Assembly (NCBI GenBank): GCA_030698395.1 | Contig: JAUYKW010000023.1 | Location: 1 to 47,234, forward strand | Reading direction: 5' to 3' | Length of the DNA stretch: 47,234 nt | DNA from: a bacterium | GTDB lineage: Bacteria > Patescibacteriota > Patescibacteriia > UBA9570 | In this document: positions 345-14,050 of the stretch, piece by piece | Layout: each line of letters opens with the position of its first letter | Numbering within the stretch: position 1 is the first letter of the stretch | Made by a program: the position numbers and the translations under genes | The notes under the pieces: model-generated | What the model saw: the letters and a program-made list of their open reading frames with translations, nothing else | The model's database searches: none | What the model was told of the DNA's origin: nothing

Positions 345-1055
345 ATGGTCCAAATTTCAGATGAACGGCTCGATGAGTTTATCGAGTTAAGTAAAGAAAA
401 AAATATTGAATACAAAGATCGACAAGAGGCGTACGAATCAGCGAGTAATCTGGTGGGATTCTTTGAGCTTCTGCATAAAATTGATCGCCAAGAACAGATG
501 AGGAAAAGACGACTTGAAAATGAACCTAAAGGATTTTCAATGGAAGGCAGTGGTCGCAATTGTCGACTCTGTAGACAATCCATTCAAGAAGATATGTGGT
601 ATGATGAATATGGAATGAAGTGCATGGATTGTCAAAAAGCAGTGAATGATAACGTCGTACCAAAAAGCATCTTTCAGGATGATAAATCCTACATTACTTC
701 AAATGAACTATCCTGGAAGTATGGCATACGGCACCAAACGATTAAAAAATATATTCGTGAAGAGGAGTTGCTTAAGCAGTTACTGCACATTATTGATCAA
801 ATAGATTTAAATACCATTGCAGCTAAACGGAAATTCCAGGAAGAACTAGAACGCTTCAGAAAATTTGCACGGGGTGTGTTGGGACAGGTGACCGACGGAT
901 CAACTGGTCAAAAAGTAGTTGATATGAAAATGTATGTGCGGTATGTGCTACAAGAAGGAACGCGAGAGGAAAAGCATGAAATTTTAGAATGCTTGGATTG
1001 CAAAATTATGTTAAAAAATCAAAAAATATTTATTGAGACGAAAGGGCCAAGCTAA
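345..1055 (+). CDS. Zinc-ribbon/HTH protein with recombinase-like C-terminal tail
   Basis: The protein is about 236 aa. I chose ATG 345 over the upstream TTG at 294, because the extra N-terminus is low-complexity. Two CxxC pairs (CRLC and CMDC, about residues 82-108) form a putative zinc ribbon. They are followed by a helix-turn-helix-like segment (ITSNELSWKYGIRHQTIKKY). From about residue 150 the character changes to a helical, charged tail ending in EEKHEILECLDCKIML. That tail resembles, from memory, the C-terminus of CPR large serine recombinases. The protein may therefore be a fusion of a DNA-binding protein and a recombinase remnant. Its stop overlaps the stop of the convergent helicase gene. 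No Shine-Dalgarno is visible. Function is unknown; DNA binding is inferred. Confidence 0.6.
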   Translation: MVQISDERLDEFIELSKEKNIEYKDRQEAYESASNLVGFFELLHKIDRQEQMRKRRLENEPKGFSMEGSGRNCRLCRQSIQEDMWYDEYGMKCMDCQKAVNDNVVPKSIFQDDKSYITSNELSWKYGIRHQTIKKYIREEELLKQLLHIIDQIDLNTIAAKRKFQEELERFRKFARGVLGQVTDGSTGQKVVDMKMYVRYVLQEGTREEKHEILECLDCKIMLKNQKIFIETKGPS

Positions 1056-4000
1056 CTTATTCTATTAGCCACGTCAGCAATGATTGTCGGTAAATCCAAT
1101 ACAACTTCAGCATCTTCTTTTTGCAAACGGGGAATCAGTTTAGTTAATTCAGCTCGAGCTTCAGCAATCAAAATGGTCTTATCTAAGCCCATTTCAACCG
1201 CCAGCATAGCTGTCTCTTCAGTGTCTGCCACTGCCGGAATACTTTCCCAAGCCCCGAGGTACTTTAGTGTCCAGTCTGGACGGTAACCAGTTACTGTTCG
1301 TGCGCCAGTTTTATCCCAAGCTCTGTCTACCCGACGACGCAAATCAGCCACTAAACCGCGAATGCGTTCTGGACGAGGGTTACTAGCTGCTAGTTCGCCT
1401 CGAACATTGCGAGTCGTGTCATTCAAACCTGGAATCAACTTATCATATAATTCCAATAAGGCTTTATCTCGATCGGTTGGCCGATCCTTTGGTTGCAACT
1501 TTGGTTTATCACCTAAGGTTTTTAATTGACCAATCAGACTGTGTAACACATCAACTTGATCAGTAAAGCTGGCCAAAAGTTCTGGAGTCATTACTTCAAC
1601 TTCAACAGCTTTAACTTCTGCAACCGGGCGAGTTGGAACTTCCACTACCTGAGCAGGGACTTCGACTACTGGTTCTGATGTGCCAGATTTTTTCTTACCT
1701 TTATCTCCGCCAAAGGCCGCTACTAACTGACCAAGGGTACTAGCATCTGCTGCCGGACCAACTGGTTTAACAGATTCCACTGCTTTAGGAGGTTCCTTAA
1801 CTGTAACTTTTTTTAAAGCTGCTGCAAACGGACTATCCACAGATTCAAGCTGAATAGGTTCATTTGCCACTTCAGCCCAGTTAGCAACACCTTCGGGTGC
1901 CACACCTTGATCGTAGGATACTTGGAGTGCTTCTACTTTTTGTTGAGCTATAAGTTGCTCACCACGGCGTTGGACAGAATACACTTCACCTTTGTTACCA
2001 ACAGCATATAATCCATCAGGTAATTGATAGTGATCGTATAAGGTTCTACCGGTACCACTCCAGTGTGATAGCTCTCGACCACGCATATACATGTTCCCAA
2101 CACCTAAACGCATAGTTATACGACGTGGTTCACGTTTATATTTCTCTTCAGAATTAAGCTGGAGAGTATCATTTTGACCATCCATACCAGAGGCACGCAC
2201 AGCAACGCCGCCACGTACCTCGAGTAGCCGAGCTGAGGAACCGGCTTGATCAAGCATTTCTAAAAACGCCACTTGTAATGGTGAAGTGTTCAACTCTAAG
2301 GGAAGTAAAGTCTGCTCTACTTCAGGCATAACACGCATGGCCTCTGCAGGATTAAAAGTATCAGTCGTTCGGCCTGGTGTAAATCTGCTGAGCAGACGCA
2401 CAGCCGCATCCCATTGAGTTTGTAATGCTCTACCGCGTTCTTCAGCTAAACCATAGTACCGAAACCGATTACCGGCTAATTTTTCTGTGACTAGTTGTTG
2501 TGCACGATCACGCACTGCAGTTGCTTGTTTGTATAATTCTGCCTGCCCCAGTTTAGACTTCTCACGATCCGCTAACGTTTGTTCAATTGCCTGCAACAGT
2601 TCAAGCGCTTTACGCGGATCAACTTCAGTAGTACGGCCATAACGATCACGCCCTTGAATGGACATGTTAGCTTCCTGCAATCGTGTGTTTAGATCTTGGG
2701 CTTCACTGTAACTAAACCCAAACTGCTCATAACCTTTAACTACTGCAGCTACTCTTGGTTCTATCTGAGCATACAGTTCTTGAGCTGGTGCAAGTATAGT
2801 CTCTCGATCAAGCCGGCGTTGTTCAGCTGCATCAACCTCAGTTTTTTTGGCTGTGGCACTGGTTTGTGCTTGCTCGGCTTCAGCATTGTTTGGATAATAT
2901 TGCACAGAAAAATTATATCGGTAAGCCGATATGCTGTAATCATATTCTTGTAAAGTTGTAATCGCCGGATAGGCCAATACAGGTTCACCATTCCGATTTG
3001 TCGTGTAAGCTGTGGGTTCATAACCCAATTCTGCACAACTTGGTAGCGGCTTCAACAGCTCTGTGGCCACAGGTTTGGCTGCTGGCTTTTCCCATTGATC
3101 CCAGGCCTGGCGGATACGGTAGGTATCTAAAGCATCTTTTAGATTTTCAATATTGATGTCTGTTTGGGCTTGCCAACCAATCCGCGCCTCAAGCATAAGA
3201 GGTACTGGCTGTTCGGCGGTACCAAGTTGTGGGATATCGGTTTGCTCAAATAAATTAAGTTGTTCTTCTGTCAGCATGACAGTAGCAGTGAACCGCTCGG
3301 CTTTACCCCAACGTTCTTGAGCTGCCCGAAAATCATAACGTACAGGTAATTGTTCTCCGCCAATAGATACCGTTTCAGGATACAAACGATCAGTTTCTTC
3401 TTGCAGTACTTTAGGATAAAAATCCTCACGTTGTAACTGTAGCGCATCATTAATATATGTAGCTTCAGATTTACGGTACACCCCAGCTAAATGCTCAACA
3501 TACCAAGCGGCCATATCTGTAGGCGGCTGTACTTGCCCGCGACTACGTTGCTGTAAAGCTTGTAACTGTTCAAGTAGCGTTTTATTATGTGCCACACACG
3601 GCAGGTCAACTTGTGCATACGCCAAGGCCCGGGCAAATGTTTCAGTAGCCTCTGCCCCTTCAACTACACGATCTTCTTTGCCTAATTCAATCGAACTATT
3701 GCCTTTTGGATACAGCACAATTTCAACCACCACCTGATCACTCGTAGCGTCATAACGCAGACTATTCCGGCGCTCTTCAATCATGTGAGGTAATGCCTCG
3801 CGCAACACTTCAAAGCTAATCGGGTGTACTCCATTGGCATAATTACGCACTATTTCTGCACCACGTCGGCCAGACCCACGCCCCTGACTAATATCGGCAG
3901 CGATACATAACTTCGGTTGGCTATCAAAGCCTTCAGAACCAGGAGACATGTTAATTTCGTTCCCACGACTTCCGCTCAGTGGATAATAACTAGGCAACCC

Positions 4001-5989
4001 CCTACCTGTACTTGATAAGTATAAGATCTTATCTGGATGACTGGCCAGTACCACACAACCCAAATCGACATCTTTTGCTGACGCTAAATGCCCTTTGAGT
4101 TTTCGAAAATCCAGTTGGGTACCAGCATAGCGGGCATAATCCTGTAAGCGATAAGCAATATGGGTGAGTGCTTCAGCTCGAATATAAAATTGATCACACC
4201 ACTGGCGAAATCGTTGTTGGGCAGCGCGACCTTCTGGAGACTTATCGCGACGCATGGCTTCAACTACACCATTGTCCAGAGCTTCAGCAAACACATTTAA
4301 GGCCTTAAGCCAATCTGATCCACCACGGTCAAAGCGATTTTGAATACCTTGCACTTTTTTACGAGCATTTAAACGTTTGTCTTTTTCACCAAAACCAGAA
4401 GCTACTTCTTCATCACGCCGGCTGGGACCCATTAACACATCTCCCTCACGTTCAAAGGCGGCTAACACTAAGGCCGCTTCCAAACACTTACGTTCCTTGG
4501 CTTCAATCAACATTCGGGCAATTCTAGGTTCAAATGGCATTTCACCCATTTGTCTGCCGCGATCGGTTAAACTAGCGTCTTCCGCTAAGGCACCAAGGGC
4601 TTTTAATTCCTCCTCACCACCAGTTAAGGCAGCAGCATCTGGCGGTTCAATAAAAGGGAAAGTTTGTGGCTCAATACCTAAACGCTTCAAGCGTAAAATC
4701 ACATGCGATAAATTACTACGCCTAATTTCTGATTCTGGATGTTCGGCTAATTGAGAAAATTGCTCAGTTGTAACAATGCGTACACACTCACCAGGTTGCA
4801 CGCGACCAGCACGCCCTGCGCGTTGTTGAGCTTGATCTTTGGAAATGAAACCTGTACCCAATTCTTGGATACCAGTTTGTGGGTTATAGCGCACTGACCG
4901 TTCACGACAGGTATCTACCACTAGCGTCACACCAGGCACTGTCACGGAAGTTTCAGCGATATTCGTTGCCACAATAACCCGCCGTCGCACACCGCTCGGT
5001 TTATCGCCAGACAAGGCATAGTCACGATCCTTAGGCGTTAAGCCACCATAGAGTGAGATAACTTCTACCCCAAGAATTGTGCCAATTTGCTTAATACAAT
5101 CCCTAATTTCTCTGGCACCGGGCATAAAGACTAAAATATCACCACCCTTAGTGCTGCAAGCTTTTTTCACTTCTTCAGCAGCTAGCCGAATGTATTCATA
5201 TTTTCCCTGAGTAGCTTCATGAGCCTTTTCAGCATAACGCGCATCAACTGGGTGAGCTCGACCTTCGATTCTGACATATTGGTCATCAGGGATATCAAAA
5301 AATTCCTGGACTCCTTCGCGGTTCATGGTGGCACTAGTCAGCACTGTTGGTGGCAATTCCCCCCCCTGTTGCATTAATTTCATCAAGCCCAAGGCCAGGT
5401 GATAATCAATGCTACCTTCATGCAGTTCATCTACGATGATGGCACCCACTTCACTAGCGCGTAAATCGCCAGACATTAAGTGGCGTAAAAAAATACCAGG
5501 TGTGATGACACTTATTTGGGAGTTTGATCTGACGGCTTTCATTTCAGACGTAGAAAAACCAATCGTGCTGCCTAATTCTTCATCAGCTATTGCTGCCATG
5601 GCTCGAGCTACGCCACTGCAGGCGTCACGTCTTGGTTGCATCACTACCACGCGCAATTTTCGATCAAGTTTGCGTAACAGTCTACGAACAATTAACGGAG
5701 TGTACAATGATTTACCAGATCCAGTTTCACCTTGCAATAACGTAATGCCATTACCAGCTGTGATGGCATGTTCAACAACGCTGGACAACTTTTCTCGATC
5801 ACGACTAACTGGTAAATCTTGAGCCTCAATTCTCGCCCGCAAACTGCGTTGTCGATCCTGTGTAGCATACTCTTCCACTGTTCTGTCGTCCACAACACGC
5901 TCATCGCTATCATCTGGAGTACCAACAGTAGCAACGTAATCTAAAGATTTATCGGGTAGTCCTCTTGGTTCAGGAGGTTGGGTTGGCAT
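1052..5989 (-). CDS. Giant DEAH-box HrpA/HrpB-like RNA helicase
   Basis: This 1645-aa protein carries all core motifs of a DEAH/DExH superfamily 2 helicase near its N-terminus: Walker A GETGSGKS (about 87-94), DELH (about 187-190), SAT (about 219-221) and motif VI QQRAGRAGR. The segments that follow look like the HrpA/HrpB accessory region (ASHPDKILYLSSTGRG). About 1000 further residues, with helical charged stretches and a Pro/Val/Glu-rich linker, match nothing I recognise. E. coli HrpA and HrpB are about 1300 and 800 aa, so this is unusually long. It starts 5 nt after the stop of the 184-aa gene and is the last gene of the unit. A role in remodelling RNA or ribonucleoprotein is inferred from family; the substrate is unknown. 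Base composition is more GC-rich than the core genes. Confidence 0.85.
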   Translation of the reverse strand: MPTQPPEPRGLPDKSLDYVATVGTPDDSDERVVDDRTVEEYATQDRQRSLRARIEAQDLPVSRDREKLSSVVEHAITAGNGITLLQGETGSGKSLYTPLIVRRLLRKLDRKLRVVVMQPRRDACSGVARAMAAIADEELGSTIGFSTSEMKAVRSNSQISVITPGIFLRHLMSGDLRASEVGAIIVDELHEGSIDYHLALGLMKLMQQGGELPPTVLTSATMNREGVQEFFDIPDDQYVRIEGRAHPVDARYAEKAHEATQGKYEYIRLAAEEVKKACSTKGGDILVFMPGAREIRDCIKQIGTILGVEVISLYGGLTPKDRDYALSGDKPSGVRRRVIVATNIAETSVTVPGVTLVVDTCRERSVRYNPQTGIQELGTGFISKDQAQQRAGRAGRVQPGECVRIVTTEQFSQLAEHPESEIRRSNLSHVILRLKRLGIEPQTFPFIEPPDAAALTGGEEELKALGALAEDASLTDRGRQMGEMPFEPRIARMLIEAKERKCLEAALVLAAFEREGDVLMGPSRRDEEVASGFGEKDKRLNARKKVQGIQNRFDRGGSDWLKALNVFAEALDNGVVEAMRRDKSPEGRAAQQRFRQWCDQFYIRAEALTHIAYRLQDYARYAGTQLDFRKLKGHLASAKDVDLGCVVLASHPDKILYLSSTGRGLPSYYPLSGSRGNEINMSPGSEGFDSQPKLCIAADISQGRGSGRRGAEIVRNYANGVHPISFEVLREALPHMIEERRNSLRYDATSDQVVVEIVLYPKGNSSIELGKEDRVVEGAEATETFARALAYAQVDLPCVAHNKTLLEQLQALQQRSRGQVQPPTDMAAWYVEHLAGVYRKSEATYINDALQLQREDFYPKVLQEETDRLYPETVSIGGEQLPVRYDFRAAQERWGKAERFTATVMLTEEQLNLFEQTDIPQLGTAEQPVPLMLEARIGWQAQTDINIENLKDALDTYRIRQAWDQWEKPAAKPVATELLKPLPSCAELGYEPTAYTTNRNGEPVLAYPAITTLQEYDYSISAYRYNFSVQYYPNNAEAEQAQTSATAKKTEVDAAEQRRLDRETILAPAQELYAQIEPRVAAVVKGYEQFGFSYSEAQDLNTRLQEANMSIQGRDRYGRTTEVDPRKALELLQAIEQTLADREKSKLGQAELYKQATAVRDRAQQLVTEKLAGNRFRYYGLAEERGRALQTQWDAAVRLLSRFTPGRTTDTFNPAEAMRVMPEVEQTLLPLELNTSPLQVAFLEMLDQAGSSARLLEVRGGVAVRASGMDGQNDTLQLNSEEKYKREPRRITMRLGVGNMYMRGRELSHWSGTGRTLYDHYQLPDGLYAVGNKGEVYSVQRRGEQLIAQQKVEALQVSYDQGVAPEGVANWAEVANEPIQLESVDSPFAAALKKVTVKEPPKAVESVKPVGPAADASTLGQLVAAFGGDKGKKKSGTSEPVVEVPAQVVEVPTRPVAEVKAVEVEVMTPELLASFTDQVDVLHSLIGQLKTLGDKPKLQPKDRPTDRDKALLELYDKLIPGLNDTTRNVRGELAASNPRPERIRGLVADLRRRVDRAWDKTGARTVTGYRPDWTLKYLGAWESIPAVADTEETAMLAVEMGLDKTILIAEARAELTKLIPRLQKEDAEVVLDLPTIIADVANRIS

Positions 5990-5994
5990 ACCTG

Positions 5995-6549
5995 TTACTG
6001 TAAGCGATTATCGTTATAAAATAATTGTGTGATAGGTAGTTGGATAAACCAATTCACTGTCAACAATAGTAGAGTAACTGGAACTTCTCCAGTGAGATGT
6101 ACTGTCTGCTTATTTTGCGCTAACGCATACAACTGTCTTAGAAAATTTAGAGCTGGCTCATCAGGTTGGTCACGTTTCGAATCTTCCCACCATTCAATTA
6201 AATTAATGGTCACATCAGTGGTTGTATCAGACTGTTGTTGCTGTGCAAAACCATCGAGGTCTGCTTCAGAAAATTCCGCTACGCACTTTACATCACTTGG
6301 ACGTAAAGTTATGGTTTCGTCAACTTGGGTTGTTAGGAGATAAGCAGTAGGTGAACCAGATGGGCGATAGGTAATTTCTGTGGCGACAGTGCGCAAACGT
6401 AAAAATAACGGTAACAGTAATTCTGTATCTGCCTGTCCACGCAATTCATACGCTACATTTTTGGCTTGCGTTAAAAACGTTTTAGCTGAAGGTTTGGTCA
6501 ACTTATCTAAGCGTACTACAACGTAATCAAGTAACTGTTCAGATTGCAT
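5995..6549 (-). CDS. Degenerate tandem Csx3-like protein
   Basis: This 184-aa protein has two halves, each ending in the pattern hydrophobic strand, LxG, helix, then a TxxxYxxxxxxxxLL-like strand. Half one has YELRGQADTELLLPLFL followed by TEITYRPSG. Half two has TVHLTGEVPVTLLLL followed by ITQLFYND. This is the same order as the core of Csx3 (strand-SGxGPxWLY-helix-strand), but the GxGPxWLY signature is lost. The protein lies between the triple-repeat protein (5 nt spacing) and the helicase (5 nt spacing), so all three are co-expressed. A ligand-binding or structural role is a guess. Alternative: an unrelated alpha/beta protein. Confidence 0.55.
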   Translation of the reverse strand: MQSEQLLDYVVVRLDKLTKPSAKTFLTQAKNVAYELRGQADTELLLPLFLRLRTVATEITYRPSGSPTAYLLTTQVDETITLRPSDVKCVAEFSEADLDGFAQQQQSDTTTDVTINLIEWWEDSKRDQPDEPALNFLRQLYALAQNKQTVHLTGEVPVTLLLLTVNWFIQLPITQLFYNDNRLQ

Positions 6550-6554
6550 TGAGT

Positions 6555-7784
6555 TTAGGCTTTAGCTCTCCAAGATTTTACTAACACTGCCTCTTCATCT
6601 GGCTTTTGATAATGCAGTTCTGCAATCAAACCATGTGCCGCATGGGCCACTTTACCAGCGATGGCTAATTCCACTGCATTGGTAATCCCGGTGATAGTTA
6701 ATACACTAGCTTTATTAACAGCTTCTTTGGCCAGAGCTAACACTACGGCATCAACATTCATTGGGTCAGCCGCTAAGGCTTCCTGCACGTTTAAAGTGAG
6801 TGGCACACGACTGTCTTTAAATTGTAGATCAGGATTTTGACCTTTATTCTTAGGAACTAAATCATGCGTTCTGGGATCGCGATGTTGGAAGACTTCAATG
6901 CCTGCAACAGTTAGTGATTTGGCTACCGAGTGGACGCTATCCATTAATCGCAACCCAGCTTGAGGTGATAGAGCTTCCAATTCAGCGGCATTGATTTTTA
7001 CTTCGTTATTCGGTAATTCTACACCAAGTGCGGTTTGAGCACCGCGCCAATTTTGTACTTGTTCTATGCTCGCAGTCGGATTACTTGCCTCAACAGTTTG
7101 CGATGGAGTGCTTTCAACCCTACCCATCTGGTTACTAGCTTGATCAGTACTGGCATCATAGGTTACAACCTCTTTTCCCGGAGCAAAAGAAATGACTTTA
7201 GTAAAACCTTCTTTGACTGCAGCAAACGCCGCACCTTCCGCCAACCAAATTGGAAATCCAGTTAACCGCACTGTCGTATCACCCTGGCTCCGCAGCTCGC
7301 GCAGTTGAGCAATGACTTGTTGCATCACGGCTTCACTGGCAGCTGCATTGACCATTTCCGGACCCTCGGGATCACCGCGAAAAGTCAAACGTAAATCTAA
7401 TACTTGACTAGGAGCCGTTGGATCAATTTTTGAATCTCCCTGATCAGCCATTAGTGAGCGTTTTAATTCTACAGTAGGTTGTGCCATCGCTTCAGACCAC
7501 AATACTACTCTGCCTTCACGTCCAGGGTTATTAAAGGCTAATTCATTTACTGACGAACCTGGCTTAGCAGCTTCGGCAGCCACTGCCATGTAGATGGTCA
7601 TCAACGTACCACCAGTTAGGTCCAGTTTTTGTTTATCTAACAGTCCGCGCTCTTGAGCAGTTCGTACATAAGCTGCTAACTGCCCTTCATCGGCCTTACC
7701 ACCCTCATATAACTTACTCGCATCAATCAAAGTTGTATCTGTTGGGTGTTCTTGAGGTATGGCTAGCGGATGTACTGGTTCCAT
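6555..7784 (-). CDS. Protein with three Csx3-like repeats
   Basis: This 409-aa protein shows the same unit three times, at about residues 16-103, 118-213 and 327-405. The core lines are LDLTGGTLMTIYMA, VRLTGFPIWLAEG and LTITGITNAVELA. Each is followed by a helix and a strand pair ending in AVLVKSW, EVVTYDA or RVVLWSE. Known Csx3 has VVISGRGPIWL, a helix, then VAVYDPRLGAVVV; the middle repeat keeps most of it (GFPIWL). Residues 214-326 form a spacer. Csx3 proteins bind or cleave cyclic tetra-adenylate or RNA ends, but the histidines important there are not clearly conserved here, so catalysis is doubtful. The gene has its own strong promoter (7816-7844). Confidence 0.6.
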   Translation of the reverse strand: MEPVHPLAIPQEHPTDTTLIDASKLYEGGKADEGQLAAYVRTAQERGLLDKQKLDLTGGTLMTIYMAVAAEAAKPGSSVNELAFNNPGREGRVVLWSEAMAQPTVELKRSLMADQGDSKIDPTAPSQVLDLRLTFRGDPEGPEMVNAAASEAVMQQVIAQLRELRSQGDTTVRLTGFPIWLAEGAAFAAVKEGFTKVISFAPGKEVVTYDASTDQASNQMGRVESTPSQTVEASNPTASIEQVQNWRGAQTALGVELPNNEVKINAAELEALSPQAGLRLMDSVHSVAKSLTVAGIEVFQHRDPRTHDLVPKNKGQNPDLQFKDSRVPLTLNVQEALAADPMNVDAVVLALAKEAVNKASVLTITGITNAVELAIAGKVAHAAHGLIAELHYQKPDEEAVLVKSWRAKA

Positions 7785-7848: not shown

Positions 7849-8577
7849 TCATGGCATATCTTCAACATATTTCTCTTGGCGTTTTTTACGATTGTTTTCA
7901 AATACTGGTCGGTCGTCATCATGGGTCTCATTCAACCAGTTCTCTTCCATGTCAAATTGTTCACGTTCAGCAAAACGAAATACAAAACCCGGCCCTTCAA
8001 CTAAATCAGCTAGATACAATGCCGCTTGTTCTGGTGTTTGTATAGTTGCTGGAAGCTGGCCATAGGACTTCAACTTTTCTGTATAGGCTATTGCCACTGC
8101 CCGATTGCCTTCAAGAGCTTTATCTAGTTGTACTAATAACCAAAATGGCCGAATAAAAGCTTCAGAAAACTGCCCTTCGTTGATCGTAAGATGTCCTTCA
8201 CCATAACGGTGAATGGTTTCCACCCAAAAACGCAATACCTTAGCCAACATTTTGGGGCCAAGTTTTTCATCATCTCCATCCCAGCCTAATTCTTTCGGTG
8301 TTGGCCTAATAATACGCCGCACGGTATCCAAAATACATTGCTTACTGGCAAAAATAAATTGATCATCCGCATAGACTTCATTGATCGTCAGGTCTCGTGA
8401 TTGAAAATAGTCATCATCGACTTCCTCAACCACTTCATGTTTGGTTAAGGCTAAATCATCTTGCATAAATTGTTCTGCAATATCCTGATCGTGAGTATTG
8501 GGTATTCCAGACAAACGCGCTACATCCACATCCCTAGGTTGCGCCATGGGTTGCAAGTCTAAGGCCTGCATTAACAA
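7849..8577 (-). CDS. Nucleotidyltransferase, C-terminal part (frameshifted)
   Basis: The ORF starts at a TTG inside a longer open frame and carries the second half of a Pol-beta-type nucleotidyltransferase. RDVDVARL matches the DxD metal-binding motif of the CCA-adding/poly(A) polymerase family. SRDLTINEV matches the family RRDxTINA block, and a helical neck follows (KMLAKVLRFWVETI). The missing GG motif is at the end of the preceding ORF in another frame. Adding one G or removing two in the 10-G tract joins the two into one protein of about 357 aa with a correct GG-x-D-x-D arrangement. As it stands the fragment should be inactive. The acidic, Asn-rich C-terminus is unrecognised. Confidence 0.75.
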   Translation of the reverse strand: MLMQALDLQPMAQPRDVDVARLSGIPNTHDQDIAEQFMQDDLALTKHEVVEEVDDDYFQSRDLTINEVYADDQFIFASKQCILDTVRRIIRPTPKELGWDGDDEKLGPKMLAKVLRFWVETIHRYGEGHLTINEGQFSEAFIRPFWLLVQLDKALEGNRAVAIAYTEKLKSYGQLPATIQTPEQAALYLADLVEGPGFVFRFAEREQFDMEENWLNETHDDDRPVFENNRKKRQEKYVEDMP

Positions 8578-8915
8578 TGCACGCGCTGCCCCCCCCCCTT
8601 ATACACATACCCTTCCGGTAAACGCTGCTGATGAAAATGTTCTTTTACCGCCAGACGAAAAATATCTGGTTTGACCTCGCTGATTTCTAGCGTACTTATA
8701 TCTACACCATATTCTTCTATAACTGACTGTAAGTCTGGATGTCTATCCCACACCACAGCATCAATCTGTTCAGCTTTGACTAATACTTCATTAACAGTTG
8801 CTCCAGTATTTTCCGGTCGCGGTAAGATCTCAGTTAATTTTAATAACTGCTGTTTCCAATCTGGTAAACTTGGACGTTTTTCTACGTGTCTTTTTAAGAC
8901 TGAAACTGGTTCCAT
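8571..8915 (-). CDS. Nucleotidyltransferase, N-terminal part (frameshifted)
   Basis: The track ORF starts at 8957, but ATG 8915 (MEPVSVLKRH) is preferred because it avoids a 29-nt overlap with the DHH gene and lies 14 nt after that gene's stop. The last sensible residues are GYVYKGG, the start of the Pol-beta nucleotidyltransferase hGG motif. The frame then runs out through the G tract into QRVHC and a stop. The following frame continues as AARALLMQALDL, the expected continuation of the GGxxR helix. The protein is therefore interrupted exactly at its catalytic loop. It could be a phase-variable gene, a slippage-expressed gene, a decayed gene or a sequencing error. Confidence 0.7.
   Translation of the reverse strand: MEPVSVLKRHVEKRPSLPDWKQQLLKLTEILPRPENTGATVNEVLVKAEQIDAVVWDRHPDLQSVIEEYGVDISTLEISEVKPDIFRLAVKEHFHQQRLPEGYVYKGGGQRVHC
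8589..8598 (-). repeat. 10-G homopolymer tract in the nucleotidyltransferase GG motif
   Basis: Ten C on the plus strand are ten G in the coding strand. With 8 G the frame reads K-G-G-A-A-R and with 11 G it reads K-G-G-G-A-A-R; both fuse the two flanking ORFs. The present 10 G give premature termination after 5 more codons. Confidence 0.95.
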
Positions 8916-8928
8916 TGCTAGCAAAGTA

Positions 8929-9870
8929 TTAGCCAATAAATGATTTAGCTTGTTCAAGCACTGCTGCCATCAAAACTGGAGTTGGATTACCAGTATTATC
9001 TACACCCATGCAATTTGAACCAAATCCAAAAGCTAACCGTGGTTCGGCTACTAACCCTTTATAATGTTCAATCAGTGCTGGAACACCTGCCGGATTAATA
9101 TTCTGCACATAAATTTTTGCTCCACTGTTAACACTAATCACTACTGGCTTCGTATCCAACCCGGCTTTCATGGCCGCTTCAGATATAAAAGTGCGCGCAT
9201 CATAAGGCTGGGTTGATTCCACCACCATAAAACCATCCTGCTCGCGGCGCTGTGCCCAATCTTGTTCAGCTGCGATGACTCGTTCAGGATACTGCGGGTC
9301 AATTTCGGCAGCTAACTGTTGGCGAAATTCTATCACGCGGGCAATGTCGGCTTGATCATACTGGTGATTACGTAAACCTTGCACAAAACCATGGTCCATA
9401 ATGCCAATCCCACGAACGGTTTTTGGATCATAGCCCCAGGCCATTAATTCTGTATCGGTGATATGCGTTCTAGCCATGAACTGTTCTAAAGAACTAGGTA
9501 AAGCTCTGCCGTTAGAAGCTTGCGTTCTATCTAAACTACCATAACGATGATGGTCAATCACTTCTAACTCTAAACCTGAAACGCGCAATGCCTCTTCAAT
9601 CTCAACATTTGGAATTTCAATAATCCACACCTCTTGTTTTTGGGTAGCACTCAGCTTATTTGATAAATCAGGTTCTTTGTCTAGCGTAGCGCCATGTTTC
9701 TGATCACTAGTAATTACTGTCATACCAAGTCTTTCAGCTAAGTGGGTAATAGTTTGTGATTCAGCATCATTACGTGGACACACTAAAACAACCCGTTCTA
9801 AAATTCTTTCACGGAATTCACGTGGATCATCTGGTGTTTTAGGTAAACCGATTTTAGCTCCTGGCTCCAT
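8929..9870 (-). CDS. DHH-like phosphoesterase
   Basis: This 313-aa protein contains LEVIDHHRYG (about residues 102-111), the signature DHH motif of the RecJ/NrnA phosphoesterase superfamily. It is followed by GIGIMDHG, which could supply the next metal-binding Asp. The C-terminal half has a DHHA1-like pattern of strands and a glycine-rich loop (FGFGSNCMG). The canonical N-terminal DxDG motif is not obvious: the first strand reads VVLVCPRNDAE, so the active site may be altered. Family members degrade nano-RNA, cyclic dinucleotides or single-stranded DNA. It is the first gene after the 9915 promoter, directly upstream of the nucleotidyltransferase. Activity is inferred, with moderate certainty. 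Confidence 0.65.
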   Translation of the reverse strand: MEPGAKIGLPKTPDDPREFRERILERVVLVCPRNDAESQTITHLAERLGMTVITSDQKHGATLDKEPDLSNKLSATQKQEVWIIEIPNVEIEEALRVSGLELEVIDHHRYGSLDRTQASNGRALPSSLEQFMARTHITDTELMAWGYDPKTVRGIGIMDHGFVQGLRNHQYDQADIARVIEFRQQLAAEIDPQYPERVIAAEQDWAQRREQDGFMVVESTQPYDARTFISEAAMKAGLDTKPVVISVNSGAKIYVQNINPAGVPALIEHYKGLVAEPRLAFGFGSNCMGVDNTGNPTPVLMAAVLEQAKSFIG

Positions 9871-9920: not shown

Positions 9921-10049
9921 GCACCTTTCTTAACTACCAAATACCATTTTTAATGTGAGGTTTAGTAATTCAGGAAGATGGGTATTTTAGGGAACTGGCG
10001 TGAAGTGAATCACGTAGCTCAACCACGGTATACCCGACCGTTTTTCTTT

Positions 10050-10712
10050 CTACTCCTCCGAGATGGTGGGCTTGAAGGCCCCGTCCACCCGCAGGCGGTG
10101 GCGAGCCTCGAGCCGGATGGCCTGGCGATCGACCGGCTTCATCCAGACGAATCCGCCGCCATCAACCCGGCGAGACCAGGAGATGCGAACGAACTCGCCT
10201 ACGATGCCGTGCAGCACCGCGTCCATCACCATCACTCCGGCCGGGAGGTTGGGTGGGACGAGCACGACGTTCGGGTCGGCCGCCATCAGCCGCGAACGAA
10301 TGGCGTCGGGGAGCGTCATCAGCGCATCGATCACCGAATCCCGGAGGGCGTCGGTGGTGTCGATGTTCAGGTGGATCGCGTGATCCACCATGATCGCTCC
10401 CGTTCCCCAGTCGGCTTCGAAAGCACGAAGGGGGTGGCCGCTCATGTTCACGATGGTGAGCGGTCCCGCGGTGGCAGAGCCCCGAATGGCCACGGTGGCC
10501 TTGCGGGTCTGAGCGACGGCGACGAGGATCGCCACCATGGAAATCACACCCGTGAACGGCTCCAAAAAATTCCAGAGACCGAGCGACCAGACGACGAGAG
10601 CGGCGACCACGGCGCTCGGCACCCAGATACGGATGTCGGCGAAGATGTGGGCCAGCTTGTCACCGGCGGTGGAGAGGGCGGGGAGGACGGTGTTGTCGAG
10701 GAACGTGCGCAT
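10050..10712 (-). CDS. Membrane-anchored Csx15-like protein
   Basis: This is a 220-aa protein. ATG 10712 is chosen because AAGGAG lies 8-9 nt upstream; the longer ORF to 10874 has no such site. Two hydrophobic helices (about residues 31-48 and 53-68) are followed by a soluble domain from about residue 80. That domain begins TIVNMSGHPL and later has VVLVPPNLPAGVMVMDAVLHGIVGEF, split here by function rather than quoted whole: NMSGHPL, then PPNLPAG, then LHGIVGEF. From memory this matches Csx15, a small Rossmann-like CRISPR accessory protein with NFSHPLT at the start and a Pro-Gly/LHG segment near the end. The stop is followed by no strong terminator. Membrane sensing or ligand binding is inferred. 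Confidence 0.55.
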   Translation of the reverse strand: MRTFLDNTVLPALSTAGDKLAHIFADIRIWVPSAVVAALVVWSLGLWNFLEPFTGVISMVAILVAVAQTRKATVAIRGSATAGPLTIVNMSGHPLRAFEADWGTGAIMVDHAIHLNIDTTDALRDSVIDALMTLPDAIRSRLMAADPNVVLVPPNLPAGVMVMDAVLHGIVGEFVRISWSRRVDGGGFVWMKPVDRQAIRLEARHRLRVDGAFKPTISEE

Positions 10713-10880
10713 GATTTCTTCTCCTTTTTTGAGAAAGACTGAGTGGCGCCCAGAGTGGAGGGGTTTTGGTTCCACTTCTATAATCACCTTTGGATTTTTA
10801 AAGATGAGTATGGAAGCGGTGGTCGACGGCGAGATTCCTTGTTGAAGGGAAACCCGCCGCCGACCGATCCGCAAGAACCG

Positions 10881-11456
10881 CTACTTGTGGTCGATCACCA
10901 CGACCCGGGCTGCGTTGGGAGCGCTGTACACGACCTGGCCTCCGCGCGAGTGCAGCGCGGCCGCGAGGGCAAGGTACAGCCAGATCGGACCGGGACCCGA
11001 GAGCACCACCTCGAACTCGGGCAGCGAACACCCGGGGCGGAACGCGGGCAGGAGCGCCAGCGCCTTCGCTTGGTACTCCACGACGGAGCCCAGTTCGAAG
11101 TTGATGCGCTGGCCGGGCGCGGGGGTGGGGACGAGGGTGGTGATGTCGAGGACGATCTGTCCCTCGACGATGGCGGAGCCGTCACCGCTCGCGACGCCGA
11201 CCGCGACGGGCGAGTAGTCCACACCCGGGGCCTGGTAGTGAATGCCGCCGTCCGGGATGGTACCGTGCGCGGCGTGCCACACGGCGAGGTAGAGCCAAGC
11301 GGGACCGGGGCCGGTGAGGGTGATGGACGAATGGCCGGTGATCCGGGTCAGGAAGGTGTTGATGTACGTGGGGAGATCTTCCACCACGAAGTTCACCTTG
11401 CCCTCCGGGATGGAGGCGTCGGTGGTCAGGAGAGAACGCAGATCGAGAGTGAGCAT
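10881..11456 (-). CDS. Tandem Csx3-like (Crn3 ring-nuclease-like) protein
   Basis: The protein has 191 aa and starts at ATG 11456, 4 nt after AAGGAGG. It has two repeats: residues 1-94 with GPGPAWLY (about 49-56), and 98-191 with GPGPIWLY (about 154-161). In both, the motif is preceded by a V/T-L-S/T strand and followed by a helix ending in His. The second repeat also has a VVYSAP strand and a closing AARVVVIDH. This is close to the Csx3 core (SGRGPIWL, helix with HKYAH, VYDPRLGAVVV). Csx3 cleaves or sequesters cyclic tetra-adenylate in type III CRISPR signalling. Here it is encoded without any Cas gene, 168 nt before the Csx15-like gene and co-directional with it. Confidence 0.75.
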   Translation of the reverse strand: MLTLDLRSLLTTDASIPEGKVNFVVEDLPTYINTFLTRITGHSSITLTGPGPAWLYLAVWHAAHGTIPDGGIHYQAPGVDYSPVAVGVASGDGSAIVEGQIVLDITTLVPTPAPGQRINFELGSVVEYQAKALALLPAFRPGCSLPEFEVVLSGPGPIWLYLALAAALHSRGGQVVYSAPNAARVVVIDHK

Positions 11457-11495
11457 ATGTCCTCCTTGGACATCCGTGCAGCGCCGAGATGAAAT

Positions 11496-11554
11496 CCGGT
11501 TGCAGGTAGCGAGGGAGAAAGGTTATTACATTCTCACTTAATACCTACAACCGG
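11496..11554 (-). promoter_or_regulatory. Promoter inside an inverted repeat, upstream of the GC-rich cassette
   Basis: Arms CCGGTTGCAGGTA (11496-11508) and TACCTACAACCGG (11542-11554) match at 12 of 13 positions. On the minus strand TTGTAG (11545-11550), a 16-nt spacer and TAATAA (11523-11528) make a plausible promoter whose -35 lies in one arm. The other arm lies just past the start site, as expected for a dimeric repressor operator. The dyad also marks the composition boundary, so a recombination site is an alternative. Confidence 0.5.
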
Positions 11555-11867
11555 TATCAAATTGGTGACGATAAAGTAGTTTAGTTCTTGCAGATAAAAC
11601 GTAGTATGTTCGCCCTTGCGGGCAAGTCTACCAACGTATTGTAAAGAGCGTGCATTCATTATCCCACTGTGGGACAGTCCATTTTAGGCCTAATCAGTGC
11701 ATATCACTGTGATAAGCCTTTTGGCCTAATGAACTAGACATTATCGCATGTTTAGCGGCGGTTTTTTATACCCCAGCAGTGCATAAACTGCCGGAATCAA
11801 AAAATGGCATAAAACAGCACAGTATACTCTTTTTAGTGCTTTGTGTCAATGTAGGCTAGGTGCAACC
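11555..11867. other. Intergenic region with clustered palindromes
   Basis: No gene is seen. Short perfect dyads follow one another: CTTGCGGGCAAG near 11615, TCCCACTGTGGGA (11662-11674), TTAGGCCTAA (11684-11693), CAGTG-N5-CACTG (11695-11709) and GCAGT-N6-ACTGC (11776-11791). AGTGCATA occurs twice (11697 and 11778) and GGCCTAAT twice. They could be regulator sites, remnants of a mobile element end, or transcript hairpins between the palindrome-free flanks. Confidence 0.5.
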
Positions 11868-12278
11868 TCAGACTTCCTTTATTTCACTATTGACTAGTGC
11901 CTGAATCAACAATTGGTTATCTTTCCCAAGCTTTTTACATATTAGTTTAAGTGTCTCCTCATTCAAACGACCAGTGGTATGATCAATAGCAGCGATAATC
12001 TGATCTCGGTGTGTGAGTAATGGTTCAGTCTCTAACAGAGTAGCTAAGCGTCCGACATTATAGTGAGTAAACTGGCAGTCACGTTGAATCTGTTCAACTA
12101 ATTCATCAATCGTAGCATCGATCCACACTTCGGCTTTACGCAGCTGCTGTAACTGTCGCTCAATTTTCCGGCTATTTAATTCGGCTACGGGTTGGCCGGC
12201 CGGCTTGAACTGCTCCCCCAACCCCCTGCTTAATTGCAAACCATTCTCTTGCTGACCTTTTTGCTTTTGCTTGTACAT
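11868..12278 (-). CDS. Hypothetical helical protein
   Basis: The protein is about 136 aa from ATG 12278; the track start is a TTG four codons earlier. Only GGGGAG, 15 nt upstream, resembles a ribosome site. It is Gln/Lys-rich at the N-terminus (residues 1-30), then helical and acidic (KIERQLQQLRKAEVWIDATI). I recognise no domain. It overlaps the truncated res ORF by 107 nt in another frame, so it either took over the end of that gene or is fused behind a deletion point near 12290. It is the last complete gene between the defence operon and the GC-rich cassette. Confidence 0.5.
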   Translation of the reverse strand: MYKQKQKGQQENGLQLSRGLGEQFKPAGQPVAELNSRKIERQLQQLRKAEVWIDATIDELVEQIQRDCQFTHYNVGRLATLLETEPLLTHRDQIIAAIDHTTGRLNEETLKLICKKLGKDNQLLIQALVNSEIKEV

Positions 12279-12420
12279 TTTCTGAAACAAGCTCTCCCCT
12301 TAAATCTACTTCATTTTTAAGTTCCAACTCACCCACAAGTTTTGATAAAATCTCAAGACTCTCTGTTTGTGGAGGTCGAAGACTAAGCCTGTTGTTAATA
12401 GTTTGAGCATTTTTATTCAT
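12172..12420 (-). pseudogene. Truncated type III restriction subunit (res) remnant
   Basis: The ORF overlaps the Mod stop by 8 nt (ATG 12420), the usual mod-res junction. Its first 50 residues (INNRLSLRPPQTESLEIL, then ELELKNEVDL) match the N-terminus of type III Res helicase-nucleases. A full Res is 800-1000 aa; this ORF is 82 aa and ends before any helicase motif. The segment FAIKQGVGG sits where FALATGVGKT (Walker A) would be expected and may be its degraded relic. No Res C-terminus or endonuclease domain is found downstream. Confidence 0.65.
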
Positions 12421-14050
12421 AGTCTTCATGGTTAAGATCTTGGTCATCAGCAACTTCTTCAGTTGATTGAATAATATTCAAATCATAATTGTCTTGACCA
12501 AATTCACATTTACCTAGAATCATTAAAGGAATTTTCTTGATCGTGATATTAGGATGTCGGCTATCACATTCGGGAGCATAAGATTTAGCACAAATAAGCA
12601 AGCTTTCCTCATCATTCATTTCTTCATGAATCTTATCGAGTTGCTCCACAGTGACAAAGGCAGTTGTGACAAATATATGATCTGTTTCAGTTGATTGACC
12701 CTGTTTCCAATACAATTCTTCATGAGGAGCAAATCTAAAACCTTCATGCTTACACATGGCTGCACTAAGCATATTGGCATTGTACTTTTCATCAATGACC
12801 CAATTGCCGTATTTGTCTTTTTGAAGCAGACTTGGGGCAAGATTATAAAACTTGAAGCCACCTCCACCTTTCCAGCTCAATGTCTCGGAAAGTAGTAATC
12901 CATCAGTATTATCTACTACCTTCCTGAGTCTTGGTAAGCAGTGCGTATTAGCATGTTCACCATACTCAATCCCAATATGCCTTCTGTTCATTTTATGGGC
13001 AACGGCTGAAGTTGTTCCTGATCCAAGAAAACTATCAAGGATCCAATCTCCCGGTTTTGAAGCTAGATCTAAAATTCTTTTTATAAGTCGTTCTGGTTTT
13101 GGGGTGTCGAATACGTCATCTCTAAATAATTCCTTTATTTCTCTTTTTGACTCTTGATTATCACCAACTTCTATTCGATACCAGATAGTTTTTGAAACCA
13201 TGCCTTCTTGTACTTCAGAAAGAAATCTTTTAATTCGTGGCAAACCATTCCCATCTTTTCCAAACCATATTCTATTATCTTTAATGAGTCCTTCAAATTT
13301 TTCTTTAGTAAATCCCCAGCATCTGCTATTAGGAGGATTGACAATCCTACCAGAGGGCGTAGTGATTGGAAAATCAGTATTGGCCGAGTAAGTCTTGACT
13401 GAAGGATTATCGGACATCCACGCTCCACGGGAATCATTATCAGGATTTTTATACGAAGAATTATTCTCATTTGTCCTTGGTAATAAATATGGTCGCCAAA
13501 CTGACTTATTATTTGCATACACTAAAATGTGATCATGGCTGTCGGAAAGCCATTTCGCATCATTTTGAGGAGAATATTTTTTCTCCCAAATTACATTTGC
13601 TACAAAATTCGAACGCCCAAAAACTTCATCACATAGCACTTTCAGATAATGGCTTTCATCGTCATCTATGGAAATCCAAATACTACCTGCGGTGGGGTGC
13701 AAAAGATTTTTTAAGATATCAAGTCGTGGCCTCATTAAGCTAAGCCATGTTGAGTGCTCAAGATTGTCATCATAATGCTCAAAAGCACTCCCCGTGTTGT
13801 AGGGAGGATCGATATAAATACATTTTACTTTACCAGCATAATCCTGCTCCAAAGCTTTCAAAGCTAAGAGGTTATCTCCGTGAATCAGCATGTTCTCTGA
13901 GTTCGGATCACCATATGATTTTTCAGGATCTTCAATCAGAATTCTTGGCTCCAATTTCACTTCATCATCTTTACCAATCCATGTTAGCTCAAGGCGTTGC
14001 TTCCTCTTTTTTGGAGTCTTACCGTTTTGTTGTTGATTATTATTATTCAT
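12413..14050 (-). CDS. Type III-like Mod DNA methyltransferase
   Basis: This 545-aa protein has catalytic motif IV DPPYNTGS (about residues 80-87) first and AdoMet motif I FLGSGTT (about 340) later, the order of beta-class N6-adenine/N4-cytosine methyltransferases such as type III Mod. The region between holds the likely target-recognition segment. ATG 14050 lies 2 nt after the stop of the 156-aa gene, so translation is coupled. With res truncated, the enzyme may act as an orphan methylase or together with the SNF2 helicase upstream. Adenine as the target is inferred from the family. Confidence 0.9.
   Translation of the reverse strand: MNNNNQQQNGKTPKKRKQRLELTWIGKDDEVKLEPRILIEDPEKSYGDPNSENMLIHGDNLLALKALEQDYAGKVKCIYIDPPYNTGSAFEHYDDNLEHSTWLSLMRPRLDILKNLLHPTAGSIWISIDDDESHYLKVLCDEVFGRSNFVANVIWEKKYSPQNDAKWLSDSHDHILVYANNKSVWRPYLLPRTNENNSSYKNPDNDSRGAWMSDNPSVKTYSANTDFPITTPSGRIVNPPNSRCWGFTKEKFEGLIKDNRIWFGKDGNGLPRIKRFLSEVQEGMVSKTIWYRIEVGDNQESKREIKELFRDDVFDTPKPERLIKRILDLASKPGDWILDSFLGSGTTSAVAHKMNRRHIGIEYGEHANTHCLPRLRKVVDNTDGLLLSETLSWKGGGGFKFYNLAPSLLQKDKYGNWVIDEKYNANMLSAAMCKHEGFRFAPHEELYWKQGQSTETDHIFVTTAFVTVEQLDKIHEEMNDEESLLICAKSYAPECDSRHPNITIKKIPLMILGKCEFGQDNYDLNIIQSTEEVADDQDLNHEDYE

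Follow-up and report, generated by a model that had tools for sequence, protein, structure and literature searches.

The window (the whole stretch of DNA that was analysed, 47,234 nucleotides) contains a short GC-rich cassette of two genes, with a resident operon that includes an HrpA-like helicase gene on one side and two flanking defence genes on the other. The features that we refer to are as follows.

1052..5989, minus strand: HrpA-like DEAH helicase, 1645 aa (TIGR01967, E 2.7e-94); its orthologs mark the locus in relatives
5995..6549, minus strand: 184-aa protein, ortholog (E 4e-27) of a 203-aa protein of the relative G001 that matches the Csx3-like HMM
6555..7784, minus strand: 409-aa protein, three Csx3-like repeats of divergent sequence (E 0.0024 with an HMM built from other genomes only)
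7849..8957, minus strand: ORFs of 128 and 242 aa, apparently one split gene (ORF list; run of 10 C at about 8590)
8929..9870, minus strand: DHH-like protein of 313 aa, with the IDHH motif alone; its profile match to the G001 and G024 DHH proteins is weak
9990..11517, no strand: GC-rich cassette, 1.53 kb, 63.8% GC (two-state GC segmentation with an HMM; 60-bp profile)
10050..10712, minus strand: gene 2, 220 aa, two predicted transmembrane (TM) helices and a Csx15 domain at aa 87-206 (NF040560, hydropathy, phmmer to 9tet)
10721..10726, minus strand: Shine-Dalgarno site AAGGAG of gene 2 (sequence; 8 nt upstream of the ATG)
10881..11456, minus strand: gene 1, 191 aa, a tandem of two Csx3 domains, mini-Csx3 subfamily (PF09620 E 3.7e-9, TIGR02579, PADLOC Csx3, alignments)
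11461..11467, minus strand: Shine-Dalgarno site AAGGAGG of gene 1 (sequence; 4 nt upstream of the ATG)
11496..11554, minus strand: inverted repeat CCGGTTGYAGGTA, arms 11496-11508 and 11542-11554; a hairpin in the presumed 5' leader of gene 1
11821..11849, minus strand: promoter-like TTGACA-17-TATACT, 11/12 consensus, in the AT-rich flank and reading towards the cassette
12413-14050, minus strand: type III-like DNA methyltransferase, a flanking defence gene (PADLOC E 1e-194)
14535-17474, minus strand: DrmD-like SNF2 helicase, a flanking defence gene (PADLOC E 1.7e-212)

We ranked 2,233 ORFs with a Csx3-like HMM that was built solely from domains of other genomes. Gene 1 came first (7e-12), the 409-aa protein second (0.0024) and the third ORF reached only 0.33, so that the two best Csx3-like ORFs of the genome are only 3 kb apart. 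The DHH-like protein had no significant BLASTP match to the other DHH-like proteins.

There are a few irregularities around these genes. The split gene (8571-8957 and 7849-8577) is interrupted at the C10 run, which could be phase variation or a homopolymer error. Two overlapping ORFs of 140 and 93 aa beside the methyltransferase (11868-12453) look like one frameshifted gene. The start of the contig (window 1-141) is identical over 141 bp to the ends of two other contigs, C19 and C20; the assembly branches here, close to a hairpin that resembles a terminator.

Composition and origin of the cassette

An earlier note, made from the letters alone, had described the cassette as a GC-rich pair of genes in an AT-rich genome, and this agrees with the genome's mean GC of 36.2% (1.228 of 1.317 Mb covered). 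The jump in composition that it placed within about 150 bp is real, although slightly less abrupt on the left. In 60-bp windows, GC goes from 0.30 at 9860 to 0.73 at 10070 on that side (about 210 bp) and from 0.62 at 11390 to 0.33 at 11540 on the right (about 150 bp). Both genes are intact and on the minus strand with a strong coding bias, and the GC3 of gene 1 is 0.88 against a mean of 0.245 for the AT-rich genes.

The note's contrast in translation signals was also borne out. A Shine-Dalgarno match of at least 4 bases precedes 79% of the GC-rich ORFs (n=19), whereas the AT-rich ORFs (n=928) have one in 13.7% of cases and random positions in 16.1%. The host's AT-rich genes have no Shine-Dalgarno signal above chance and the GC-rich genes have retained theirs. 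The 3' end of the 16S rRNA in this genome still contains CACCTCC and reads GGATCACCTCCT. Taken together, the GC3 difference and the Shine-Dalgarno contrast support a horizontal acquisition of the cassette from a GC-rich donor whose translation signals were kept, much as the earlier note had proposed. The GC-rich donor that it expected among the nearest homologues did not turn up. The closest relatives of gene 1 are single-domain mini-Csx3 proteins of 79-97 aa with about 35-53% identity, which occur in Firmicutes and Desulfobacterota genomes and on a few viral contigs, and single-sequence queries with the cassette proteins found no close relatives in the viral_contigs, genome_contigs, phages or plasmids sets.

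The 13-bp inverted repeat at the right edge is real as well. Its arms match at 12/13 bases and form 13 pairs as RNA, with a folding z of -4.4. However, it is not the end of an element; the genome has a single copy, with no counterpart at the left edge, and we rejected it as a mobile-element terminus. We found no terminal inverted repeats, target duplications or shared recombination motif at the edges of the cassette or of the other islands, no motif above chance when edges were compared across the genome's islands, and no mobile-element machinery. A transposon or an integron cassette was set aside for lack of terminal repeats or a common recombination site at both edges. The promoter-like element in the AT-rich flank is only suggestive as a candidate promoter of the gene pair (one match was found against 1.1 expected in shuffles).

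The host genome is 1.32 Mb (1.317) in 31 contigs and 97% complete, with a contamination estimate of 0.95%. It contains about 20 GC-rich islands that code for proteins, each 0.3-5 kb long, and their gene content is unrelated: an aminotransferase, a LOG-family protein, a formyltransferase, a response regulator, a lipoprotein-like protein and others. The cassette is therefore one island among many, and GC-rich transfer is a genome-wide habit here. Examples of islands in this genome (G000) are L035 16529-20000 with L051 1-1510, L037 1511-2780, L082 2196-3946 and L093 1498-3799; they are coding, have 55-64% GC and Shine-Dalgarno sites, and one of the items encoded is a MopE-like repeat protein. The abrupt change of composition is what one would see in an assembly chimera or a contaminant. 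We consider this very improbable given the low contamination estimate, the many such islands inside AT-rich contigs, and the same theme of arrangement in a separate relative genome (discussed in a later section), and a chimeric contig is an unlikely source of the cassette.

The two cassette proteins

The earlier note had named Csx3-like and Csx15-like domains. The families stand, and the content is more specific: a tandem mini-Csx3 and a Csx15 with two TM helices, resembling the pairs of membrane effector and ring nuclease in type III systems. Csx3 and Csx15 are both already known families. Single-sequence AlphaFold models of the two proteins had pLDDT of 41 and 37, too poor to interpret.

Gene 1 scores 36.7 bits against PF09620 (cut-off 21) in two stretches, which identifies it as a Csx3-domain protein, and 35 bits against TIGR02579, under the equivalog cut-off of 55.4. 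It has in common with Csx3/Crn3 the GxGPxWLY motif and H60 in both domains, and differs by the tandem duplication, the score below the TIGR02579 cut-off and several replaced residues. Residues important for the cleavage of cA4 by A. fulgidus Csx3 are D69, R71, H60 and H80 (PMC7371418). The D69 position of gene 1 is Q in domain 1 and S in domain 2, there is no R at 71 in either, and R46 is replaced by P in both. Among the histidines, H57 together with H60 is kept in domain 1 only, and H60 together with H80 in domain 2 only. Because both domains are without D69 and R71 and have P for R46, ring-nuclease cleavage by the predicted product is doubtful; binding of a ligand is possible.

Gene 2 scores 40.3 bits against NF040560, over the curated cut-off of 35, and hydropathy places one hydrophobic segment at aa ~29-47 and another at ~49-67. 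Csx15 proteins stack head to tail when they bind cA4, with S9, H11, H82, R116, R120 and R123 as interface residues, and some members act as sponges (PMC13148439); about 25% of csx15 genes are orphans (PMC12409355, PMC13148439). Gene 2 keeps the S-x-H, the second His and the C-terminal arginines of PfCsx15 and CliCsx15. S91, H93 and H168 correspond to S9, H11 and H82 of PfCsx15, and R196, R200 and R204 are near R116, R120 and R123, with the third spaced +4 rather than +3 and its position approximate. Characterised Csx15 proteins are soluble dimers, whereas gene 2 has an N-terminal predicted TM pair and lies in a genome without a detected Cas10. Judged from its sequence, gene 2 contains a Csx15 domain in a variant architecture and is not a canonical Csx15, because the two hydrophobic segments precede the domain and it would not be a soluble stand-alone protein.

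What gene 2 does fit is the layout of cA4 membrane effectors, with predicted TM helices and a domain of a type that binds cyclic oligoadenylate (cOA). Cap1, which has 2 TM helices and a CARF-like domain, opens a pore upon binding cA4 (PMC12642688), and Csx23 is a cA4-binding membrane effector (PMC11014256). Like Cap1, Cam1 and Csx23, gene 2 would have N-terminal TM helices before a cytosolic cA4-binding domain; the sensor is a CARF, CARFL or Csx23 domain in those effectors and Csx15 here, and gene 2 is without DUF4579. The Csx15 literature that we found, leaving aside a large CARF-superfamily classification, describes no membrane-anchored Csx15.

Single mini-Csx3 genes in other genomes are found in comparable pairs. 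In a type III-A locus of Desulfoluna (L102), mini-Csx3 comes after Csm3-Csm4-Csm5 and a TM-CARF gene, and in a type III-B locus of Nitratidesulfovibrio (L106) it comes after Cmr4, Cmr6 and a TM-SAVED gene. In Desulfatirhabdium (L101), it directly follows a TM-SAVED gene. For both SAVED proteins (L101 and L106), the TM part was called from family models and the N-terminal sequence and is under the hydropathy threshold. In all three loci a membrane sensor gene adjoins mini-Csx3, as in the cassette, which differs in that the sensor is Csx15, the Csx3 is doubled and lies first, and there are no CRISPR genes. Because mini-Csx3 follows a membrane CARF or SAVED sensor in type III loci, we read the cassette as a likely pair of a membrane cA4 sensor and a ring-nuclease-like protein.

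Other mini-Csx3 genes are near phage capsid, terminase or integrase genes. One viral contig (L110 1809-5598) has type IV-like csf2/csf3, a CysH-like gene and a mini-Csx3 gene. In a Chloroflexi CRISPR array of 114 repeats (L107), the spacer at 10034-10074 encodes the mini-Csx3 motif LTGPGPVWLYLAVG, and because of this spacer we think that the family probably travels on CRISPR-targeted elements.

This second set of neighbours brings up the main rival to an effector, a pair of sponges that acts as an anti-defence or dampener module. Both proteins would be ligand traps, a tethered Csx15 sponge and a weakened Csx3 sponge, with no membrane toxicity, and the ligand would be cA4 or a related nucleotide from another cell, plasmid or defence system. 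The orphan PfCsx15 is a cA4 sponge (PMC13148439), and the Csx15 of gene 2 could likewise be a tethered sponge instead of an effector. The loss of D69 and R71 in both Csx3 domains is compatible with binding without cleavage, and the viral contigs, the phage and integrase neighbours, the csf2/csf3 neighbours and the Chloroflexi spacer all suit such a role. However, the D69/R71 replacement may weaken binding as well, and Csx15 has not been seen in phages by others (PMC13148439), nor did we find a phage match. The TM fusion, and a parallel Csx23 pair in the relative G001, suit an effector better. On balance we regard the two sponges as possible but unlikely.

HrpA-like loci in related genomes

Orthologs of the HrpA-like gene are present in 28/380 genomes of the class. 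In G001, which is of the same family, the HrpA ortholog has 52% identity over 1245 aa and the 184-aa ortholog is also present. After these two comes a GC-rich pair, Csx23 (PADLOC E 8e-21) and a DHH-family gene, with 63% and 69% GC against 40% for the genome and an AAGGAG site on the DHH gene. We considered gene 2 as a direct ortholog of this Csx23 and dropped the idea, as there was no significant match. A search of the phylum with the Csx23 model PDLC01550 gave no match, but the controls gave none either. A CBASS operon (CD-NTase, E2, HNH-SAVED; L132 17084-19772) lies about 4 kb from the Csx23 and DHH pair.

The GC-rich genes recur in other relatives. G024 has a GC-rich (67%) ortholog of the G001 DHH gene by its HrpA-like operon. 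The operon of G429 adjoins a Csx3-AAA gene that is GC-rich (65% vs 46%), scores 76.8 bits against TIGR02579 and has a 5-base Shine-Dalgarno match, and in G022, G139 and G715 Csx3 or Csx3-AAA genes are adjacent to HrpA-like genes. The Csx3-like domains at the loci of G022, G139, G429 and G715 are like those of Csx3-AAA and AAA-Csx3 (PADLOC PDLC01045, PDLC01059), whose P-loop domain is absent from the cassette in the window. In total, a Csx3-like neighbour was found at 7/25 HrpA-like loci, a count that includes G001 and G688 weakly and is not fully blind, as the G022 and G139 loci were first met through Csx3. Csx3 occurs in 10/379 genomes of the phylum in total. G447 and G627 are examples of HrpA loci without any GC-rich neighbour.

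With about 20 islands per Mb, we estimate the chance of a GC-rich island within 3 kb of the operon as ~0.1 per genome, and the recurrence of GC-rich genes at the operon, taken alone, is suggestive. The shared theme plus the recurrence is stronger evidence than the recurrence by itself. The placement of the cassette looks functional and not random, because the highest-ranking Csx3-like ORF and the runner-up are neighbours, and relatives have GC-rich genes on the same theme at their HrpA operon; the earlier note had come to the same view from the window. The cassette could also be passive DNA, captured recently and under no selection for a function, and the many islands with their varied genes show that uptake is habitual here. 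We find this improbable, as both ORFs are intact with strong coding bias and adjoin Csx3-like genes, and the theme repeats at the same operon in relatives.

A role tied to the resident locus is rather unlikely, though less so than passive DNA. The Csx3 tandem would then tune the machinery of HrpA and the 409-aa and 184-aa proteins through protein contacts or a ligand other than cA4, for example to rescue RNA or ribosomes when phages attack, with the TM-Csx15 as no more than a tether. The operon itself has Csx3-like repeats, and these recur with HrpA-like helicases across families without Cas10. On the other side, the ligand residues that Csx15 keeps, and the presence of a Csx23 partner in G001, favour the sensing of cyclic nucleotides. 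We found no literature linking Csx3 to Patescibacteria, or HrpA to cyclic oligoadenylate.

We also observed several features of the relatives that touch on these loci. Among the G001 contig ends (L137, L139, L140, L143, L144, L145, L146), six contigs start with an identical AT-rich sequence of 139-140 bp that leads into different, mostly GC-rich DNA, and a second type of end has the core ACGCGCCnnnATGnAACGGT. An integron was considered and rejected for G001 because the two types look like the inverted ends of one multi-copy insertion sequence. Contig-end sequences of the G001 type are absent from the window genome. In G182 (L193 6980-12165), an HrpA-like gene of 50% GC and a neighbouring 342-aa gene of 55% GC lie within a stretch of 26% GC that is partly masked. 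Small proteins starting with KxLWxSxHxxTxRQ are found beside the relatives' Csx3-AAA genes (L043, L047); they have no NCBIfam match and may be another Csx15/Csx16-like family.

Signal source and function

For a source of the signal, we searched the window genome with the Cas10 palm domain PF22335 (no match at E <= 1) and the SMODS cyclase PF18144 (no match at E <= 0.1). The search for a synthase covered these two models. PF22335 also gave nothing over the cut-off in 11 relatives carrying Csx3-like or HrpA-like genes. We rejected an accessory module of type III CRISPR-Cas for want of a detected Cas10 in the window genome, and CBASS for want of a detected CD-NTase (SMODS).

Our best explanation is that the cassette is a horizontally acquired, Cas10-less module of a membrane effector and a ring-nuclease-like protein, attached to the resident HrpA-helicase/Csx3-like operon, and we give this an even chance. 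A cyclic oligonucleotide, most likely cA4, would come from some synthase and bind between the Csx15 domains of gene 2 proteins anchored in the membrane. As these domains stack, they would cluster the TM helices and perturb the membrane, leading to arrest or a lost membrane potential. The tandem mini-Csx3 would capture, and perhaps slowly cleave, the same ligand, which would set a threshold or reset the alarm. A membrane Csx15 effector is mechanistically plausible because the Cap1 pore opens on cA4 and Csx15 stacks on cA4. We infer the ligand, the membrane action, the regulation by gene 1 and the link to phage defence. The activating signal is missing from this explanation because no cyclic-nucleotide synthase was found. 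The earlier interpretation as a whole is partly supported.

A broader reading, which we consider less likely than not and about as probable as the paired sponges, is that the locus belongs to a Cas10-less cyclic-oligonucleotide system of defence or stress. It would consist of an HrpA-type DEAH helicase, Csx3-like and DHH-like partners, an unrecognised synthase in or near the operon, and swappable GC-rich cassettes of effectors and ligand-degrading proteins: TM-Csx15 with tandem mini-Csx3 in the window, Csx23 with DHH in G001, and Csx3-AAA in G429. The HrpA-Csx3-DHH locus has a reasonable chance of being a system in its own right.

Should these readings be true, type III CRISPR signalling would have membrane effectors and ring nucleases that also operate outside CRISPR in bacteria with small genomes, and a new source of cyclic oligonucleotides tied to an HrpA-type RNA helicase would await discovery. 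Orphan csx15 and csx3 genes would be partly explained, and a Csx15-based membrane effector, unnamed in the literature that we found, would be added to those known. It would also mean that imported genes can retain the GC content and Shine-Dalgarno sites of their donor in a genome that does not use them.
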